A stretch of DNA of 64,000 bases, taken from an uncultured Gammaproteobacteria bacterium (GTDB lineage: Bacteria; Pseudomonadota; Gammaproteobacteria; UBA4575). Below the pieces are notes generated by a model. The model was not told the DNA's origin. It saw nothing but the letters and a program-made list of their open reading frames with translations, and did not search any database. The stretch lies in NCBI GenBank assembly GCA_951812785.1, contig OX638335.1, positions 895,501 to 959,500 of the forward strand. The letters run 5' to 3'. A program made the position numbers and the translations under genes. Positions within the stretch are counted from its first letter, which is position 1; each line of letters begins with the position of its first letter. Below are positions 1,290 through 54,243 of the stretch, piece after piece.

Positions 1290-2135
1290 TTAAGGCATTG
1301 GGAAAAGTATGTTGTCTATCAAACGAGTCTCTCCTAACCAAGCGGCGGCTAAAACCACAATTTCTCTAGTGGAATCACTAATTGGCTGTAAATTAATCGC
1401 ATCTCGAATATTGAAATATTCAACGCGCATGCTATGTTTTTCTAAATGAGAATATGCTGATGTTTCTAATAAAGAGATTGTCTCAATAGAAAATTGTTTT
1501 TTTACTCGTTCTAAATTGGAATATAGATGATGAGCCAGCTCACGTTGCTTAGGGCTTAGGTGCGTGTTGCGTGAGCTCATTGCCAGTCCATCTGCTTCTC
1601 GCTCAGTTTTTCCCGCAACGATATTTATATGGAAGTTAAGCTCGTTTACCATGCGGCGAATAATTAATAGCTGCTGGTAATCTTTATTGCCAAACACGGC
1701 AACATCAGGCGTCAGAATATTAAATAATTTGCAAACAATTGTGCATACGCCTTCAAAATGTCCTGGACGAAAGCGGCCATCAAATTCTTCGGTTAATTCA
1801 GGGATAAGTATTTTTGGAGCTGATTGTATTCCATGAGGGTAAAGTGATTCTGTGTGGGGAGTAAAAACAGCATCAACATTAAGAGCCTGTAATTGCGCTA
1901 TATCAGTGTCTAACGTCCTTGGGTAATGAGCGAAGTCACTTTCTTGATTAAACTGCAGCGGATTCACAAAAATAGACACAACGACACATTGGCCTAATGA
2001 TTTAGCTAATTCTATTAGTGAAGCGTGTCCTTTGTGCAGGTGACCCATGGTGGAAACCAACACGATTTTATCCTTGTTGGATTTCCAGCGGCTGATATGT
2101 TCTCGAATTTGTTCGGATTCGGAATATACCTTCAT
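1290..2135 (-). CDS. panC: Pantothenate synthetase
   Basis: Cytosolic ligase joining pantoate and beta-alanine with ATP to make pantothenate, the precursor of coenzyme A. Length 281 residues, normal for the family. The HIGH-like nucleotide motif is MGHLHKGH (residues 30-37), VVVSIFVNPLQF follows at 51-62, KDYQQLLIIRR near 151-161 and the KMSKS-equivalent MSSRN at 186-190. It lies 21 bases downstream of panB on the same strand, as the last step-pair of the pathway. Nothing unusual is seen apart from His-Leu in place of the common Ala-Leu in the first motif. Confidence 0.96.
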   Translation of the reverse strand: MKVYSESEQIREHISRWKSNKDKIVLVSTMGHLHKGHASLIELAKSLGQCVVVSIFVNPLQFNQESDFAHYPRTLDTDIAQLQALNVDAVFTPHTESLYPHGIQSAPKILIPELTEEFDGRFRPGHFEGVCTIVCKLFNILTPDVAVFGNKDYQQLLIIRRMVNELNFHINIVAGKTEREADGLAMSSRNTHLSPKQRELAHHLYSNLERVKKQFSIETISLLETSAYSHLEKHSMRVEYFNIRDAINLQPISDSTREIVVLAAAWLGETRLIDNILFPMP

Positions 2136-2156
2136 AATAGAAATGCGTTGTGAATG

Positions 2157-2948
2157 CTAAGCAGGGAAATCGCTAGACTTAACTTCTTTAATGTAATTAG
2201 TCACGGCATCTTGAATGCTGCATGACTGCATATAATTTTTTACGAATGGAGGAGTTTTGCCTGGAGTAATGCCAAGAATGTCTTGTAATACTAAAATTTG
2301 ACCATTGCAGTCTTTGCCTGCGCCAATGCCAATGACTGGAATGTTAACGGTTTTAGTGATTTCTGCAGCCAACTTTGCTGGAATGCATTCCACTAATAAT
2401 ATGTCAGCACCTGCTGCTTCTAAAGTGGTGCTTGTGAGTAATAATTCGTTGGCTGAATCAGAATCAGTGCCTTGTGCATGATAGCCACCAAGTTTATGAA
2501 TGTACTGTGGGCGCAATCCCAGATGTGCGCATATTGGAATGCCGTAAGCACTAAGTTCTTCAACAATTTCTGTTTGGCGTTGGGTGGCTTCTAGTTTAAC
2601 CATTTGTGCGCCGCCTTCTTGCATGAGGCGAGTGGCATTATAAAGCGCGCTATCGATATTGCTGTAACTCATAAACGGCATATCAGAGATAACCAAAGAA
2701 TGATTGACTGAGCCAGAAACACATTCTGTGTGATAGATCATATCGTCCATAGTGACGGAAACCGTTGATGGATTTCCTTGTACTACCATGCCTAGAGAAT
2801 CACCTACCAAGATGACATCCATGCCAGCATGATCTAATAGTTTTGCGAAGGCTGCATCATAGGCAGTCAGGCAAGCAATTTTTTCATTGCTGTCACGCAT
2901 TTTCTGCAGCTGATTAATTGTGATGCCTATGGAATTTTGTGCACTCAT
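2157..2948 (-). CDS. panB: 3-methyl-2-oxobutanoate hydroxymethyltransferase
   Basis: Adds a hydroxymethyl group from methylene-tetrahydrofolate to alpha-ketoisovalerate, giving ketopantoate. 263 residues, the usual size. Recognisable blocks are ACLTAYDAAFAKLLDHAGMD, the metal-binding VLVGDSLGMVVQG and the catalytic-glutamate region ADILLVECIPAKLA, then IPVIGIGAGKDCNGQILVLQD. It starts two bases after the deoxynucleoside kinase stop, so the two are almost certainly co-transcribed. Folate supply from the neighbouring folK fits the cofactor need. Confidence 0.96.
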   Translation of the reverse strand: MSAQNSIGITINQLQKMRDSNEKIACLTAYDAAFAKLLDHAGMDVILVGDSLGMVVQGNPSTVSVTMDDMIYHTECVSGSVNHSLVISDMPFMSYSNIDSALYNATRLMQEGGAQMVKLEATQRQTEIVEELSAYGIPICAHLGLRPQYIHKLGGYHAQGTDSDSANELLLTSTTLEAAGADILLVECIPAKLAAEITKTVNIPVIGIGAGKDCNGQILVLQDILGITPGKTPPFVKNYMQSCSIQDAVTNYIKEVKSSDFPA

Positions 2949-45709: not shown

Positions 45710-45790
45710 AAAGAGGAAATAAAAAATGAAGTATAAATTAACAGAAGAAACAATCACTGTAGGTGGTAAAACTCTCTACAGAATCCAAGC
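45710..45790 (+). repeat. 81-bp direct repeat, copy 1
   Basis: Covers the ribosome site AAAGAGGAAA, the start codon and the first 21 codons of the first beta-helix gene. Identical to 46508-46588. Confidence 0.9.
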
Positions 45791-46442
45791 AGTTAAGGAT
45801 TTTTGGTTTGTCAAGTCAGGTGAATTAGGCGGCTTCGTCGAAAGCGAGGATAATCTATCTCAAGACAACGATGCATGGATTGATGAGGACGCAAAAGTCT
45901 TTGGCGACGCTAAAGTTTTTGGCAATGCGTACATTCGAGAAAAAGCTGAAGTTTTTGGTGACGCAGAAGTTTTTGGCAGAGCTAAAATTTTTAACAACGC
46001 TAAAGTTTTTGGTGATGCTAAAGTTTCCGACAATGCTGAAGTTTTTGGTGACGCAGAAGTTTTTGGTGACGCGCAAGTTTATGGCGGCGACACTGAAGTT
46101 TTTGACAGCGCGGTTGTTTCCGGAAACGCCAGTGTCATCAAAAATCCATTCGCTCCCAAAAACTTTGGCGGCGATGCTAAAGTTTTCGGCAAGGCTAAAG
46201 TTTCCGACAATGCTAAAGTTTTTGGTGACGCTAAAGTTTTCGGCAACGCTGAAGTTTTTGGTGACGCGCTAGTTTTCGACAATGCTCAAGTTTTTGGTGA
46301 CGCTGAAGTTTTTGGTGACGCTGAAGTTTCCGACAATGCTCAAGTTTCCGACAATGCTAAAGTTTTTGGTGACGCTAAAGTTTCCGGCAAAGCGCTAGTT
46401 TTTGATAACGAGCAAGTTTCGATAACGTGCAAGTTTCCGTAA
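45726..46442 (+). CDS. Left-handed beta-helix hexapeptide-repeat protein (3' frameshift)
   Basis: 238 residues. An N-terminal part of about 55 residues (MKYKLTEETITVGGKTLYRI, GGFVESEDNLSQ) is followed by some 28 imperfect six-residue units of the type KVFGDA/EVFGNA/KVSDNA, built from 18-base DNA units. Such [IV]xGxA repeats form a left-handed parallel beta-helix as in hexapeptide transferases, but no catalytic loop is seen. I remember proteins with the same N terminus from phages. At 46418 one C seems missing: repair would give VSDNVQVSVNTEK and a stop at 46454-46456. Strong AGAGG ribosome site. Function unknown. Confidence 0.75.
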   Translation: MKYKLTEETITVGGKTLYRIQAVKDFWFVKSGELGGFVESEDNLSQDNDAWIDEDAKVFGDAKVFGNAYIREKAEVFGDAEVFGRAKIFNNAKVFGDAKVSDNAEVFGDAEVFGDAQVYGGDTEVFDSAVVSGNASVIKNPFAPKNFGGDAKVFGKAKVSDNAKVFGDAKVFGNAEVFGDALVFDNAQVFGDAEVFGDAEVSDNAQVSDNAKVFGDAKVSGKALVFDNEQVSITCKFP

Positions 46443-46479
46443 ACACCGAAAAATAAAGTAAAAAGCTAATTAACAACCA

Positions 46480-46499
46480 AGCCCCGTGAGAGCGGGGCT
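46480..46499. repeat. Hairpin between the two beta-helix genes
   Basis: Seven-base perfect stem AGCCCCG/CGGGGCT with a TGAGAG loop. No T-run on the plus strand, so more an intercistronic RNA hairpin than a terminator. Confidence 0.6.
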
Positions 46500-46507
46500 A
46501 AACAACG

Positions 46508-46588
46508 AAAGAGGAAATAAAAAATGAAGTATAAATTAACAGAAGAAACAATCACTGTAGGTGGTAAAACTCTCTACAGAATCCAAGC
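46508..46588 (+). repeat. 81-bp direct repeat, copy 2
   Basis: Identical to 45710-45790; covers the ribosome site and start of the second beta-helix gene. Points to a recent duplication or ongoing recombination. Confidence 0.9.
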
Positions 46589-46880
46589 GCTTAAGGATTT
46601 CCGTGAAATCAAGTCAGGTGACTTGGGCGGCTTCGTTGGAAGCGAAAAAAATCTCTCGCAAGATGACAACGCATGGGTTTTCGATAAAGCTAAAGTTTTT
46701 AGCGACGCCAAAGTTTTTGGAAACGCCAAAATTCGTCGCAGGGCGAGCGTTTTGAATGACGCTAAATTTTCTGACAAAGTGGACGTTTCTAGTGTCGCGA
46801 ATATAACGCTTGAGATGTCTTCAGGTAATATAGAAGATTCTTCTTATTTCAAAAAGATAACACTTTACCATAAAAACTAG
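46524..46880 (+). CDS. Short paralogue of the beta-helix repeat protein
   Basis: 118 residues. The first 21 codons are identical to the gene before it; the next 35 residues are close (FREIKSGDLGGFVGSEKNLS). Only three or four hexapeptide units follow (AKVFSDAKVFGNAKIRRRAS), then a non-repetitive tail. It looks like a paralogue that has lost most of its repeats or never had them. Same strong AGAGG ribosome site. Confidence 0.7.
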   Translation: MKYKLTEETITVGGKTLYRIQALKDFREIKSGDLGGFVGSEKNLSQDDNAWVFDKAKVFSDAKVFGNAKIRRRASVLNDAKFSDKVDVSSVANITLEMSSGNIEDSSYFKKITLYHKN

Positions 46881-48228: not shown

Positions 48229-49269
48229 ATGAGTGAGATAGAAATCTGTCAGTTGGCTGATTCCGAAAATGAGATATGGAATCAATATGTGAATCAATCA
48301 AATGATTCGACATTCTTTCATTTGGCACAGTGGCAAACTATTTTCGATAAAGTATTAGGGCATCGCTCGTACTATCTTATGGCGAAGGCAGGCAACGATG
48401 TTGTTGGCGTTTTTCCTCTGATGAATGTGAAAAGCAAGCTGTTTGGTAATGCGCTTATTTCAGTTCCATTCGGAGTTTATGGTGGTGCGATAGCAAATGA
48501 CGAATCAATTTATAAGGTATCGTCTGAGCGAGCAGTGAAGCTTGCAAACGAGTTGGGTGTTGATTATGTTGAAGTGCGTGAGCAACAAGAAGCTGCTGTC
48601 GCTAGTATGGATTGGCAGGAGAAAGGTTTGTATGTGACATTTCAAAAAGAGCTATTTGATACTGAGGAGGAAAATTTCAAAGCTATTCCTCGCAAACAAC
48701 GTGCAGTAGTCAGGAAAGGCATTGATTACGGTCTAATCTCCGAATGGGATACTAATGCTGAACGTTTTTATGCTATGTATTCTGGGAGTGTTCGTAATTT
48801 GGGAACACCAGTGTTGTCAAAGAAATACTATCAAGCTTTATTGGATACCTTTGGAGATAAGTGCCGAGTACTCACTATATTAGACAAAGGAGTGCCTGTT
48901 TCTAGTGTGCTTAATTTTTATTTCAAGAATCAAGTGTTACCTTTCTATGGGGGTGGTCCAGCTCAAGCTAGAGTTTGTAAAGCTAATGATTTCATGTGCT
49001 GGGAATTGATGCGGCTAAGTGTAGCGCAGGGCGTTAAGGTGTTTGATTTTGGTCGAAGTAAAGATGGCGCAGGTTCATATCGTTTCAAAAAACATTGGGG
49101 ATTTTCTCCTGAGCCACTACATTATCGGTTCCATTTGGTAAATGCCAAAAGCATACCTGATTTAAGTCTGACCAATCCAAAATATCAATTGGCAATTAAA
49201 ATTTGGCAAAAAATGCCGCTTCCCATGACTCATATTGTAGGGCCAATGATTGCTAGAGATTTTGGCTAA
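48229..49269 (+). CDS. FemAB-family protein of the XrtA/PEP-CTERM type
   Basis: 346 residues, full length and free of stops. GNAT-like FemAB fold: DSTFFHLAQWQTIFDKVLGH, YYLMAKAGNDVVGVFPLMNV, SVPFGVYGGAIANDES, IPRKQRAVVRKGIDYGL, YFKNQVLPFYGGG and KVFDFGRSKDGAGSYRFKKH. This last block is the hallmark of the XrtA-linked FemAB members. They are thought to add an aminoacyl or acyl group to a polysaccharide, unproven. Its retention among decayed neighbours is notable. No Shine-Dalgarno sequence. Confidence 0.85.
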   Translation: MSEIEICQLADSENEIWNQYVNQSNDSTFFHLAQWQTIFDKVLGHRSYYLMAKAGNDVVGVFPLMNVKSKLFGNALISVPFGVYGGAIANDESIYKVSSERAVKLANELGVDYVEVREQQEAAVASMDWQEKGLYVTFQKELFDTEEENFKAIPRKQRAVVRKGIDYGLISEWDTNAERFYAMYSGSVRNLGTPVLSKKYYQALLDTFGDKCRVLTILDKGVPVSSVLNFYFKNQVLPFYGGGPAQARVCKANDFMCWELMRLSVAQGVKVFDFGRSKDGAGSYRFKKHWGFSPEPLHYRFHLVNAKSIPDLSLTNPKYQLAIKIWQKMPLPMTHIVGPMIARDFG

Positions 49270-49364
49270 GCAGGCATGCCTGATCAATCATAAATAAACT
49301 AATAAGCCTTGGTTGAAGATTGAAGCCAATCACGAGCTAAATATTTCTCGCCAGTTGAGCGCGA

Positions 49365-49525
49365 CTACGATGCTAATACAATATGTTTGGTCCGCAAACC
49401 GAACTTATTACCCCGATGAGAAATGCAGCTTGAGTTTAGTCAACAGGTATTTCCTTTGTTATGTGCAAAGTATCCTAGTCTTAAAGTTGTGTATTGTCGG
49501 CTTTAATCCGACACTGCCTTGAGAA
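49365..49525 (+). pseudogene. XrtA-linked glycosyltransferase (TIGR03087-like) relic
   Basis: Frames together read TYYPDEK, then FSQQVFPLLCAKYPSLKV and CIVGFNPTLP. The family has a run DYYPN...WFAxEVFPLLR...HPxxxFYIVGxNPTP in this order. Only about 50 of some 400 residues remain. The position right after FemAB is the place of this gene in intact XrtA loci. Confidence 0.5.
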
Positions 49526-49539
49526 GCAGAATACGGTGT

Positions 49540-49814
49540 CGAGTTATTTCTATCGTGGAGTAGCATTTAAGCCAGTTGATAGAGTATTTCGCTTGATTTA
49601 TGCAGTTTATCTACATAAAAAAGGGTATTTTGATCAACTAGAAAAGCAATATAATAAAGCGCTTGCTTTGGATCTTGATTCAGCTGAAGTTAATTGTAAT
49701 TTAGGTCTATTTGTATGTGGGCGGAATAAACTTGGTCCGGTTGTTAAGCGTGGGTATAAAGCATATGAACTAAAGCAATTTCTCAAAACTAACATAAATA
49801 TTGCAAATAAATAG
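49540..49814 (+). pseudogene. TPR-motif gene fragment
   Basis: One clear tetratricopeptide unit, GYFDQLEKQYNKALALDLDS followed by AEVNCNLGLF, then RNKLGPVVKRGYKAYEL. There is no credible start (a TTG in the decayed glycosyltransferase is the first). It probably is the remains of a longer TPR protein. An intact 106-residue ORF with the TTG start cannot be excluded. Confidence 0.45.
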
Positions 49815-49822
49815 ATTTTACT

Positions 49823-50074
49823 ATGGTTGAATTAGAGCAAGTTTTAGATGTGTTGGCTGAATCTCTAGATGGTGCAGCTCAGATACATCAAATGAGTGAA
49901 GAAGCACCGCTACTTGGTGCTATTCCTGAATTAGATTCCATGACGATAGCCGGTATTATCACCTCAATAGAAGAGCGTTTTGGCATTGTATTCGATGACG
50001 ACGAATTAGATGCTGAGGTGTTTGAAACAGTAGGAACACTGAGAAACCAAATAGTCGCTAAAATGGAAAACTAA
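49823..50074 (+). CDS. Acyl carrier protein of the XrtA locus type
   Basis: 83 residues, acidic. The phosphopantetheine serine is Ser39 in PELDSMTIAGIITSIEERFG. The block FGIVFDDDELDAEVFETVGT fits the ACP that accompanies the exosortase-A-linked acyl ligase and PLP decarboxylase rather than the fatty-acid ACP (which has a different start and DSLDTVE). The start is nine bases after the TPR fragment; no Shine-Dalgarno sequence. Confidence 0.85.
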   Translation: MVELEQVLDVLAESLDGAAQIHQMSEEAPLLGAIPELDSMTIAGIITSIEERFGIVFDDDELDAEVFETVGTLRNQIVAKMEN

Positions 50075-50154
50075 GGTTACACGCAACTGATTTCCAGTAT
50101 CTTCCTTTTAACCAAAATCCCAATATCTATAGCCTGTAGTTTTTCTAGAGAAAA

Positions 50155-50505
50155 GTGAGGCTGTGGGAGATCATCGGGCTTTTTCATTCGCTACGTGTAT
50201 TGATCGTGTTGATGGTATTATATTGTTATTAAGGTTTTAGTTTTAAAAGCACGTCCTAAAACACCTGGGTTCGACAAACATCAAGCAATTTCTGTTTCGG
50301 ATAAAAAAGAGAATATTGCGCTCGCTATGCTTGAAAGGTTGTCTGATTTCAATGGAGATATCTGTTTGATTTTAAGCAGCTAAGATTTGGTTGCTGATGA
50401 GTTCGAGCAAGTGCTGGATGGGCATAGTTGGTTAAAAGAGGAAAAACAAACCCAAAGCATTTGTTCATCATACTTTCTCTTCGTGATTATAGAGGTCTAA
50501 AGTAG
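50155..50505 (+). pseudogene. Exosortase-A-associated 'hydrolase 1' relic
   Basis: In order: AFSFATCIDRVDGIILLL (family ...aysatDpRVaGlvLLNPW), NIALAMLERLSDFNGDICLI with LSSxDLVADEFEQVLDGHSW (fxGpvLLiLSGxDLtAxEF...W), and FVHHTFSS/LRDYRG (ADHTFSxxEWR). The last block is split by a one-base shift. Alpha/beta-hydrolase of unknown role in the family. The 80 bases between the ACP stop and here are not identified. Confidence 0.5.
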
Positions 50506-50532
50506 AGCATACCACCTTGGACTTCATAACTC

Positions 50533-51768
50533 TTAAACAAAAACCTCAATCGGATGAGGATGGCTCAAGAAGTTTAATGGGCTGGATGTATATCCGTAAG
50601 CACCTGAGTTAAATACCGCCACATAATCATCAATGTCAGCTTTGGGTAGAATCATGTCTTGTGCGAGTATATCAAGCGGCGTGCACAGAGGCCCGACTGC
50701 GCTAGCTCTTTCTGTTTCCAAGCCAATTTTATTGGCGACAGTAACCGGGTAGTTTTTGCGAATGACTTGTCCAAAGTTACCGCTTGCGGCTAGGTGATGA
50801 TGTAGACCGCCATTAAGGATTAAGAAAGTGCTGCCTCGTGATATTTTCTTATCGATAATTTTGCAAATGTATACGCCTGATTCGCCAACGATGAAGCGCC
50901 CCAGCTCGGTGATAATGGATGTATTACCAAATCGATCCGCATATTGGTCTAATAATAGATGTAAGTTTTCACCGATAGGTTCTAATGATAATGGTTTTTC
51001 GCCAGGGAAATAAGGGATGCCAAAGCTTCCACCAATGTTCAGCTTGGAAAATTCAGTGGCAGATTGTTCAGCTAAAGCAGCAGCTAAGGCAAAAGTTTTA
51101 GTCTGTGCTTCTATTAATGCTTTAGTCTTTAAGTTCTGTGATCCACTGAATATGTGTAAACCTATAAAATCCAAGTTGTAGCTAACAATCTTTTTAATGA
51201 TATCGTTAGCAATTTCTGTATCTACGCCAAACTGCTTAGGCCCGCCTGACATTTTCATGCCGGAAGTTTTTAATTCGAAGTTGGGATTGATACGCAATGC
51301 AACTCGAGGTGTAATGCCTAGCTGTTCGCCAATTTTAGTGGCGCGATCTAATTCAGTTTCCGATTCCAAATTGATTGTAATACCACTTTTAATGGCGAGT
51401 GTTAATTCATCTATACTTTTGCCCGGGCCTGCAAAACTAATATCTTTAGGGTTTGTGCCACTTGCTAGCGCAACTTTCAGCTCAAGACCAGAAGCTACAT
51501 CTAGCCCCTCTACTAAGCCTTGTATATAGCCCACAACCTCAGGCATAGGGTTGGCTTTGATTGCATAATGGATATGCATAGATTTAGGTAGAATCTCTCT
51601 AAGGGAGTCTATTTTTTGCTTTATCACCGAGCTGTCATAGATGTAGGCGGGTACATCTTTATGTTGGCTTAATATGTCAGTGAATTTTTGTTCCCCCATC
51701 ACTAAGCAATTATCTTCTACGTTGTAGAAGTTTAGAGGGGAGTGGTGTTCTAGTGATTTTTTAGTCAT
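50533..51768 (-). CDS. PLP-dependent decarboxylase, exosortase-A-associated type
   Basis: 411 residues, alanine-racemase-like fold III. PLP lysine in IHYAIKANPMPEVVGYIQGL; SAGPGKS-type block ISFAGPGKSIDELTLAIKSG; glycine-rich phosphate site in FSKLNIGGSFGIPYFPG; ELGRFIVGESGVYICKII; C-terminal VAVFNSGAYGYTSSPLNFLS with the Tyr of the active site. Related to diaminopimelate and ornithine decarboxylases. Its stop is close to the hydrolase relic and it overlaps nothing; it lies two bases downstream of the ligase gene, so the two form an operon on the minus strand. Confidence 0.87.
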   Translation of the reverse strand: MTKKSLEHHSPLNFYNVEDNCLVMGEQKFTDILSQHKDVPAYIYDSSVIKQKIDSLREILPKSMHIHYAIKANPMPEVVGYIQGLVEGLDVASGLELKVALASGTNPKDISFAGPGKSIDELTLAIKSGITINLESETELDRATKIGEQLGITPRVALRINPNFELKTSGMKMSGGPKQFGVDTEIANDIIKKIVSYNLDFIGLHIFSGSQNLKTKALIEAQTKTFALAAALAEQSATEFSKLNIGGSFGIPYFPGEKPLSLEPIGENLHLLLDQYADRFGNTSIITELGRFIVGESGVYICKIIDKKISRGSTFLILNGGLHHHLAASGNFGQVIRKNYPVTVANKIGLETERASAVGPLCTPLDILAQDMILPKADIDDYVAVFNSGAYGYTSSPLNFLSHPHPIEVFV

Positions 51769-51770
51769 TG

Positions 51771-53357
51771 CTAATTGCTAAATATGTTTTCAAATTCAAG
51801 ATACAATTGCTTGCGATCAAATTTACCATTAGCATTGCGTGGCAATTCGTCGCGAATAAATATTTTCTGCGGCAGCATGTAAATGGGTAGCTGCTTCTTG
51901 AGTGAGGAGGTTATCTCTTTTGTTAAGTCCTCGCTTTTTGAATTGCTAGTTGCTACCATAACAATGGCTTGCCCAAGTTCCGAATGAGGTATGCCCATCG
52001 CAACGGCTTCGCTAACGTTTTCTAGAAGTAGTAGAGGCTCTTCGATTTCTGTTGGGCTGACGCGGTAACCTGATGTTTTGATCAGCTCATCCCTGCGACT
52101 AATGAAGTATAGGTAACCTTCCTCATCTTTCTTGACTAAGTCGCCTGACCATACTGCTAGTTCTGTTACCGTGCGTCCAGCTGTTAGCGAGGCTGGCAAT
52201 GGCTTATAATGCCTAGAAGTTTTTATTGGATCATTCCAGTAACCTTGCGCGACTAATGGGCCGCGATGAACTAATTCACCTTCTTCGCCGGGCTTGCATT
52301 CTTCATTGTTAGAATTGATGACAAATATTTCTGCATTGGGTATCGCTTTGCCTATTGATGTGGGGCGAGTATTTATTTGGTCGGGTGGTAAGTAAGTAGA
52401 GCGAAATGCTTCAGTTAAGCCATACATTAAATAAATATCAGTATTAGGCAGTTTGTTTTGGAGAATAGATAAAGTACTTTGAGGCATTGCTCCGCCAGAA
52501 TTAGTGATGTAGCGCAAATGGTTTTTGATGCTGTCAGGCCAGGTCAACTTGGTAATTTGTATCCATAATGGAGGGACTCCTGCTAATCCGGTTGCGTTAG
52601 TGCGCTTTAAGGTTCTAATGACATCTTTAGGTAATAAGTAATCTAATAAAATAACGGTGGCGCCGGATACCATGGCAGTAGTAATTTGATTGAAGCCATA
52701 ATCAAAGCTAAACGGTAACACCGCAAGAATTCTATCTTGCTCGGTGTTGTTCTGGTACTGCGCGACACTTTCTGCACCCACTCGCATATTGTGATGTGTT
52801 AGCACTACGCCCTTAGGTTTTCCAGTGCTGCCAGAGGTGTAGAAGATAGCGGCAAGGTCTGACTCGATAATGTTCGGCGTATTTTTAGTATTATATTGTT
52901 GACAGAAGTTTTGCCAACTTGAAATTGATTTGGAATATTGGCTAGAGTCAATTGAGTCATCAAAATCAACCAACACAATTTTTTGAAGTGCAGGACAATT
53001 CCCTATAACTTCTTCTAATTGTTTTAAGCGAGACTTGGATGTGACCAGAATACTGACATCGCAATCGCATAGTATGTGTTCAGTCTGGTTGGCTTTTAGT
53101 ATTGGGTTAATTGGCACAATGCTACCGCCCGCTAACAATGTGCCAAACATGGCAGTAATAGTTTCTACTTGCTTGGCTAAAAATATTCCAATGCGGCTAC
53201 TCTTAGGTAAGTTCATGCTTGAGTAACCGCCAGCAAAATCTGAGGCAAGTATGCTCAGATCTTGGTAGCTGACCTTTTCTTGTTTATATTCTATAGCGAT
53301 AGAATCAGGGCGTATTTTTGCCTGATCAAAGAGCGGTGAATGTAATAAGAAATTCAT
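51771..53357 (-). CDS. AMP-forming acyl-CoA/acyl-ACP ligase, exosortase-A-associated type
   Basis: 528 residues of the ANL superfamily. The ATP loop is IFYTSGSTGKPKGVVLTHHN; other core motifs are IYLMYGLTEAFRSTYLPPD, WSGDLVKKDEEGYLYFISRR, KTSGYRVSPTEIEEPL and the C-terminal catalytic Lys in LPRNANGKFDRKQLY. It probably loads a carboxylic or amino acid onto the nearby ACP (inference from context). First gene of the ligase-decarboxylase pair, transcribed away from pheA. Confidence 0.87.
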   Translation of the reverse strand: MNFLLHSPLFDQAKIRPDSIAIEYKQEKVSYQDLSILASDFAGGYSSMNLPKSSRIGIFLAKQVETITAMFGTLLAGGSIVPINPILKANQTEHILCDCDVSILVTSKSRLKQLEEVIGNCPALQKIVLVDFDDSIDSSQYSKSISSWQNFCQQYNTKNTPNIIESDLAAIFYTSGSTGKPKGVVLTHHNMRVGAESVAQYQNNTEQDRILAVLPFSFDYGFNQITTAMVSGATVILLDYLLPKDVIRTLKRTNATGLAGVPPLWIQITKLTWPDSIKNHLRYITNSGGAMPQSTLSILQNKLPNTDIYLMYGLTEAFRSTYLPPDQINTRPTSIGKAIPNAEIFVINSNNEECKPGEEGELVHRGPLVAQGYWNDPIKTSRHYKPLPASLTAGRTVTELAVWSGDLVKKDEEGYLYFISRRDELIKTSGYRVSPTEIEEPLLLLENVSEAVAMGIPHSELGQAIVMVATSNSKSEDLTKEITSSLKKQLPIYMLPQKIFIRDELPRNANGKFDRKQLYLEFENIFSN

Positions 53358-54243
53358 AGAAAAGATTTTATTTGGAATTAATTCAGTGGTTAATTTTAGC
53401 GGACTAAGATAAATTTGTATTGCTGATTAGTGTAATTAGTTAGTCATTTGGGTAGGGTAAACTTCGCTTACCTTTAAAATAAAGAATTAGATTAGAGCTG
53501 TAGTATATTGTTTGTCGACTTATATTGTCAGTTGATTGAAGCAAATTTAGACTCCTTTCCATATTGAATATAATGATAAGAGACTGACCTATAGCTATTG
53601 CTAGGTTAAATTTCAGAGGCAACAGATTGTTGCGAACTTGGTTTAATGCATGCTGATCAGCATTATGCTGCCAATATGCCAGGTGCGTTTTTCAATGATT
53701 TGAAATGGAATAATGGATTTTCTATTTGTGGTCGTTGCAACTCGTCGAGAATTTTTCAGGCTTGCTAAGTCAGGTAAATTTGTATCGGCTTAGCTTTGAT
53801 ACTGGCACTCTATGGTGCTGAAGAAATCGGTTATGAGTAAAATTTACTATGGTGCATGTTAAACCTTAAAAGCTTGTCTAATAGTCTAGAGGTTAAATAG
53901 CTTGCAGTTGGAGTATAACCAAACTGTTGGATGGGGTTTTACGCGTTTCATTTTCTGTTTTGAGAATAAATCTCAGTGGTTAGGGAGCTCGCTTGCGTGA
54001 TAGTATTAGCGTGCATCTATATGAATTTAAATTAAGCAAAATAATAGGATTGAGTATATAAAATAGACTGAATTATATACACTAGGCCTATTACACTATC
54101 AATGGCAATCCATTACTTTTCAAGATTGATGCTAGTAGGCATTTATTTTTACTCTGATTATGTTTTGAAGTTTAATAACGAGCTTGAATTCGAATAATGT
54201 TGAATGAAGCTAGCTAGTTAATATTTGTATATTTAAAAATTGA
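53358..54243. other. 885-bp AT-rich region without a recognisable gene
   Basis: No frame is open for long and I found no family match. Short stretches such as LQLEYNQTVGWGFTRFIF hint at a former outer-membrane or envelope gene, but this is too weak to name. It may hold the promoters of the ligase gene (minus) and pheA (plus) at its ends. Confidence 0.5.

Follow-up and report, generated by a model that had tools for sequence, protein, structure and literature searches.

The decayed EPS locus and its open frames

The window, a stretch of 64,000 nucleotides (G000:C1:895501-959500), originates from a closed genome of 2.16 Mb. Comparison with the intact counterpart in the congener G002 identified the wreckage within it as an XrtA-type exopolysaccharide (EPS) locus. 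Four open frames are embedded in this wreckage, encoding a FemAB protein, a carrier protein (ACP), a PLP decarboxylase (DEC) and an AMP-forming ligase (LIG) (Table 1). All four are full-length, with no stop in 1368 codons; LIG and DEC are adjacent and share the same orientation. The original prediction, which named these four as intact genes inside a decayed locus, agrees with what was found: the frames lie at the predicted positions, they pass the cut-offs of their families (for TIGR03019, TIGR03098, and TIGR03099, the curated NCBIfam cut-offs), and the fragments around them carry stops. Two of its statements apply in part. Every gene between and beside the four was said to be broken, which is true inside the EPS block but not outside it, where serC, a sugar epimerase, a tviB-like dehydrogenase, the pheA-type CM-PDT gene, prephenate dehydrogenase, and aroA are intact on either side. 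Active-site motifs were said to be intact, which holds for Ser39 of ACP (LDS39) but not for the PLP-phosphate loop of DEC, which reads GGSFG in place of GGGFG (G248S).

Table 1. Open frames and gene remnants of the EPS locus (window positions).
Feature	Positions	Strand	Basis
EpsB2 polyprenyl glycosylphosphotransferase (sugar transferase) remnant, TIGR03013	47342-47660	+	comparison with G002 locus
XrtA-type polysaccharide deacetylase remnant, TIGR03006	47671-48212	+	comparison with G002 locus
FemAB, XrtA/PEP-CTERM-associated	48229-49269	+	TIGR03019, 424.8 bits vs cut-off 260
Glycosyltransferase stp1 remnant, TIGR03087	49339-49546	+	comparison with G002 locus
TPR protein remnant	49506-49772	+	comparison with G002 locus
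ACP, acyl/aminoacyl carrier protein	49823-50074	+	PP-binding at Pfam cut-off; phosphopantetheine Ser39 in LDSM
Hydrolase 2 remnant, TIGR03101	50077-50189	+	comparison with G002 locus
Hydrolase 1 remnant, TIGR03100	50202-50531	+	comparison with G002 locus
DEC, PLP decarboxylase, BtrK-like	50533-51768	-	TIGR03099, 543 bits vs cut-off 478
LIG, AMP-forming ligase, amino-acid-type FSFD motif	51771-53357	-	TIGR03098, 709 bits vs cut-off 592
WecB UDP-GlcNAc 2-epimerase remnant	53561-53705	+	comparison with G002 locus
Remnant of unnamed 224-aa protein of G002 locus	53717-53929	-	comparison with G002 locus

In G002, the tviB-like dehydrogenase and the pheA-type gene flank the intact ancestral locus. 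Its genes occur in the order EpsB2, export protein, chain-length determinant, tyrosine kinase, TIGR03016, deacetylase, FemAB, stp1, stp3, second deacetylase, O-ligase, amidotransferase, TPR protein, ACP, hydrolases 2 and 1, DEC, LIG, and WecB. Seven genes of this locus are recognizable in the window as fragments. Their 641 codons include 12 in-frame stops, and the reading frame changes at least five times; the remaining EPS genes are deleted. The edge of the decayed locus (45726-46880) also holds two YdcK-like beta-solenoid frames (238 and 118 aa), in which the repeats recur every 18 nt. The first 228 nt of this pair are 83% identical, which indicates a local duplication.

The exosortase profile TIGR02602 had no match anywhere in the G000 genome. 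The search for relocated copies of the lost EPS genes revealed only distant homologs within the 77% of this genome that was covered, and a crude motif scan of the same proportion gave no convincing case of a PEP-CTERM or VPLPA-CTERM tail. Within the family, TIGR02602 matches were obtained for G002, G004, G008, G014, and G016. The sole exosortase of G002 scores as XrtD (VPLPA-CTERM type), though the EPS locus of this organism is of the XrtA type; its gene is situated apart from the locus, at C1:264681 (L027 9547-11139).

The 120 bp upstream of LIG (53358-53478, minus strand) are 80% identical between G000 and its closest relative, G003, and the sequence beyond them is partly deleted. Conservation of this region despite the neighboring deletion is consistent with kept expression. 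A AAATGACTAATTAATTACACTAA-type block occurs upstream of LIG in G000, G002, G003, and G004 (window 53358-53478; L026 9516-9635; L029 4972-5093) and is possibly regulatory. A promoter scan of the locus performed no better than on shuffled sequence.

Retention among relatives and selection

The family sample comprised 19 genomes. In all five genomes of genus g6 and all three of genus g2, LIG, DEC, and ACP occupy the corresponding syntenic site, unaccompanied by any other gene of the EPS locus. This site lies between serC/gyrA (or an epimerase) and a pheA-type gene/aroA; only one flank was readable in two of the eight genomes, owing to short or cut contigs. Exosortase and FemAB are absent from all eight. 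The original prediction suggested a search for genomes that keep just the four genes; no other sampled genome has exactly this set. DEC is present in 17 of the 19 family genomes, including four that have no LIG: G001 (L116 4993-6225), G011 (L117 5152-6378), G007 (L119 6402-7631), and G014 (L144 10991-12220). No ACP was seen beside these LIG-less DEC genes where the flanks were readable; the G007 contig stops just past DEC. Since DEC alone survives in four genomes, the retained unit is not rigid. Its core consists of LIG, DEC, and ACP, of which DEC persists most often, and does not include FemAB.

G003 keeps LIG, DEC, ACP, both hydrolases, the TPR protein, the amidotransferase, and the O-ligase. 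Exosortase and FemAB were undetected in G003, which is a provisional result from an assembly of 120 contigs with two overlapping contigs 90% alike. These contigs, L003 and L028, overlap across LIG/DEC and represent either mixed strains or two copies. In L028 (8167-9395), EpsB2 immediately follows the second deacetylase and the contig ends there, as if a block comprising stp3, stp1, FemAB, the deacetylase, and the chain-length genes had been deleted. In the class-wide sample, DEC was found in 42 of 369 genomes. Exosortase was absent from nine of 40 further DEC-bearing genomes and present in 31; seven of these nine are among the 35 good assemblies. LIG homologs in plasmid records were all below 60% identity.

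The values of pairwise omega for the four genes against G003 and G002 were 0.02-0.06. When the G000 branch was given its own omega in a codon model, the estimates were 0.084 for LIG, 0.060 for DEC, 0.040 for ACP, and 0.082 for FemAB. The housekeeping comparators had 0.035 (PDT), 0.092 (aroA), and 0.018 (rpsA) on the same branch, and the values for LIG, DEC, and ACP are similar to these. The dead fragments gave 0.12 (TPR protein), 0.05 (deacetylase), and 0.95 (hydrolase 1), estimates made from few codons and biased to conserved stretches. The dN/dS check suggested with the original prediction thus returned low values for all four genes but is weakly diagnostic: because two of the three dead fragments also fall far below 1 (0.05-0.12), dN/dS by itself cannot separate retention from recency. 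A G000 branch constrained to omega = 1 was rejected for LIG (2dlnL 32.4), DEC (15.0), and ACP (9.1); for FemAB, which has only distant comparators, it was not (2.6). The survey for unique departures at near-invariant positions revealed none in LIG, one in DEC (G248S), and three in FemAB (L98S, Y257C, and P314L); 7% of 85 FemAB homologs are equally bad. The cassette of LIG, DEC, and ACP lay inside an XrtA-type EPS locus, of which the window lineage lost the rest, and has been under purifying selection. We regard its selective retention as likely.

All four genes might instead be undecayed survivors, spared by chance in a recent collapse of the locus. The low omega of two of the three dead fragments fits this explanation, since it implies that the decay is young, as do the failure to reject neutrality for FemAB, the three changes that place this protein among the worst 7% of its homologs, the G248S replacement in DEC, and the fact that G000 scores below the G002 and G003 copies for all three long proteins. 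We nevertheless consider chance survival rather unlikely. Had the four genes accumulated stops as densely as the remnants, they should contain about 26, although the genes compared may have entered relaxed selection at different times; none was observed. Neutrality was rejected for LIG, DEC, and ACP, and eight genomes from other genera retain this trio in the absence of exosortase. The evidence differs for FemAB. The claim of a module that works without exosortase is supported for LIG, DEC, and ACP, both by the eight g2/g6 genomes and by the rejection of neutrality, but not for FemAB. A four-gene module, with FemAB as the transferase of its product, could account for a FemAB frame that is full-length and stop-free and belonged to the same ancestral locus. 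Since the exosortase-free g2/g6 genomes with the trio have no FemAB, however, they lend no support to this role; FemAB was also not found in G003 and shows signs of relaxed constraint, which makes the four-gene module quite improbable. FemAB is probably a bystander, a leftover yet to break.

Predicted chemistry of the retained genes

The best solved relatives of LIG are NRPS adenylation domains, but LIG scores with fatty-acyl ligases too. An Asp residue in the A4 region (FSFDYG, LSFDYG, LAFDYG, or LSFDAG) is present in all 61 aligned LIG sequences and aligns with the Asp of NRPS adenylation domains (FSFD in LgrA). In adenylation domains, this Asp usually reads the alpha-amino group beside the activated carboxyl.

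The best solved relative of DEC is BtrK, both by sequence (246 bits; next best, 160) and by fold (E 7e-39, for an AlphaFold2 model with a mean pLDDT of 87). BtrK shares 36-37% identity with DEC and 27% with LysA, and the motif GPLCTP is common to DEC and BtrK, whereas LysA has GPVCES. In an unrooted tree of DECs, LysA, and BtrK, the latter two share one long branch off the DECs. Since BtrK is thus placed outside the DECs, the kinship is one of similarity, not of shown membership. BtrK decarboxylates glutamate bound to the carrier BtrI (BtrI-S-) to carrier-bound GABA (PMC7857480). The G248S replacement (codon AGC; 51000-51050, minus strand) was found only in the DEC of the window. Except for a few distant ones, DEC homologs have GGGFG or GGGLG in the PLP-phosphate loop, and three distant DECs have IGPGLG. 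As the loop admits some variation, G248S does not necessarily abolish activity.

We propose, with a probability of roughly 0.55, that LIG, DEC, and ACP constitute a selectively kept, exosortase-independent cassette for the decarboxylation of a carrier-bound amino acid. Judged from motif and family, LIG would adenylate an amino acid that most probably bears a second carboxyl, such as Glu or Asp, and load it onto the phosphopantetheine arm at Ser39 of ACP. DEC, by its kinship to BtrK, would then strip the alpha-carboxyl from the ACP-bound substrate and leave an omega-amino-acyl-ACP (GABA-ACP or beta-alanyl-ACP, for example); ligation would thus precede decarboxylation. The omega-amino-acyl group would be accepted from ACP by an enzyme encoded elsewhere. 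The chemistry of the original prediction (acid activation by the ligase, carriage by ACP, amine formation by the decarboxylase) is refined in this way, not proved, a BtrK-like DEC being suggestive of decarboxylation on the carrier. Several observations count against the cassette. Namely, four genomes have DEC without LIG, and DEC may also work alone; the DEC of the window carries G248S in its PLP-phosphate loop; LIG also scores with fatty-acyl ligases; and the adenylation-type Asp alone leaves a free alpha-carboxyl for DEC unexplained.

Two further explanations concern DEC itself. The enzyme, with or without LIG and ACP, could make beta-alanine for CoA from aspartyl-ACP or aspartate and so replace a missing PanD; we guess that the product of a BtrK-like enzyme on aspartyl-ACP would be beta-alanyl-ACP. 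PanC is encoded in 18 of the 19 family genomes, while PanD was found in none of the 19 and a PanP-type decarboxylase above the cut-off likewise in none; in the window (1290-2948), panC/panB are followed by a pgi-like frame, without panD. The presence of DEC in most of the family genomes, sometimes alone, would suit this role. However, PanC is present in G006 and G016, where PanD is missing and no DEC was detected, and DEC occurs mostly in genomes with exosortase (31 of 40). Since these two family genomes also lack a detected DEC, another source of beta-alanine in the family is probable, and we rate a PanD-replacing DEC as very unlikely. Hardly any more probable is a free-standing LIG-DEC-ACP pathway that needs no exosortase, in which a dedicated carrier bears the omega-amino-acyl thioester and the product meets an essential requirement, perhaps that for beta-alanine in CoA synthesis in a family without PanD. 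DEC could also be an ordinary diaminopimelate or polyamine decarboxylase of basic metabolism, with LIG and ACP incidental, given that its fold is common to DAP decarboxylases and that it persists alone in four genomes. Identity with LysA was ruled out, the genome having its own LysA above the cut-off at C1:109151; DEC reaches 232 bits with the lysA profile, below the cut-off of 298, and has CTP where LysA has CES. An ordinary decarboxylase is accordingly highly improbable.

The LIG and DEC families have been named only through their link to exosortase. The literature searched contained no study on the function of the exosortase-associated ligase and decarboxylase, and nothing on FemAB with exosortase or BtrJ. 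The recurrence of this trio at a single site in genera that lack exosortase dissociates the job of LIG and DEC from protein sorting. Ligase, carrier, and decarboxylase represent a minimal set that is directly testable in vitro, and BtrK provides a concrete chemical prediction.

Comparison with known systems

The FemAB of the window matches the XrtA-associated family TIGR03019 above the cut-off (Table 1), but its partner genes are gone and it carries three unique changes at near-invariant sites. LysA, the diaminopimelate decarboxylase, shares with DEC the alanine-racemase-type fold and the PLP lysine in YAIKAN; DEC does not have the CES motif. The LIG-DEC pair corresponds to the XrtA/PEP-CTERM-associated pair TIGR03098/TIGR03099, with both members above the cut-offs, adjacent, and co-oriented. 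In the congener, this pair is located inside a full XrtA-type EPS locus, whereas the window genome has no exosortase and a broken EPS locus, and the g2/g6 genomes are reduced to LIG, DEC, and ACP. The BtrI/BtrK system of butirosin side chain synthesis resembles the retained genes in that BtrK is nearest to DEC, a small carrier is encoded nearby, and GPLCTP is shared. It differs in that the present ligase belongs to the AMP-forming ANL enzymes, the locus contains no aminoglycoside genes, and the identity is about 36%.
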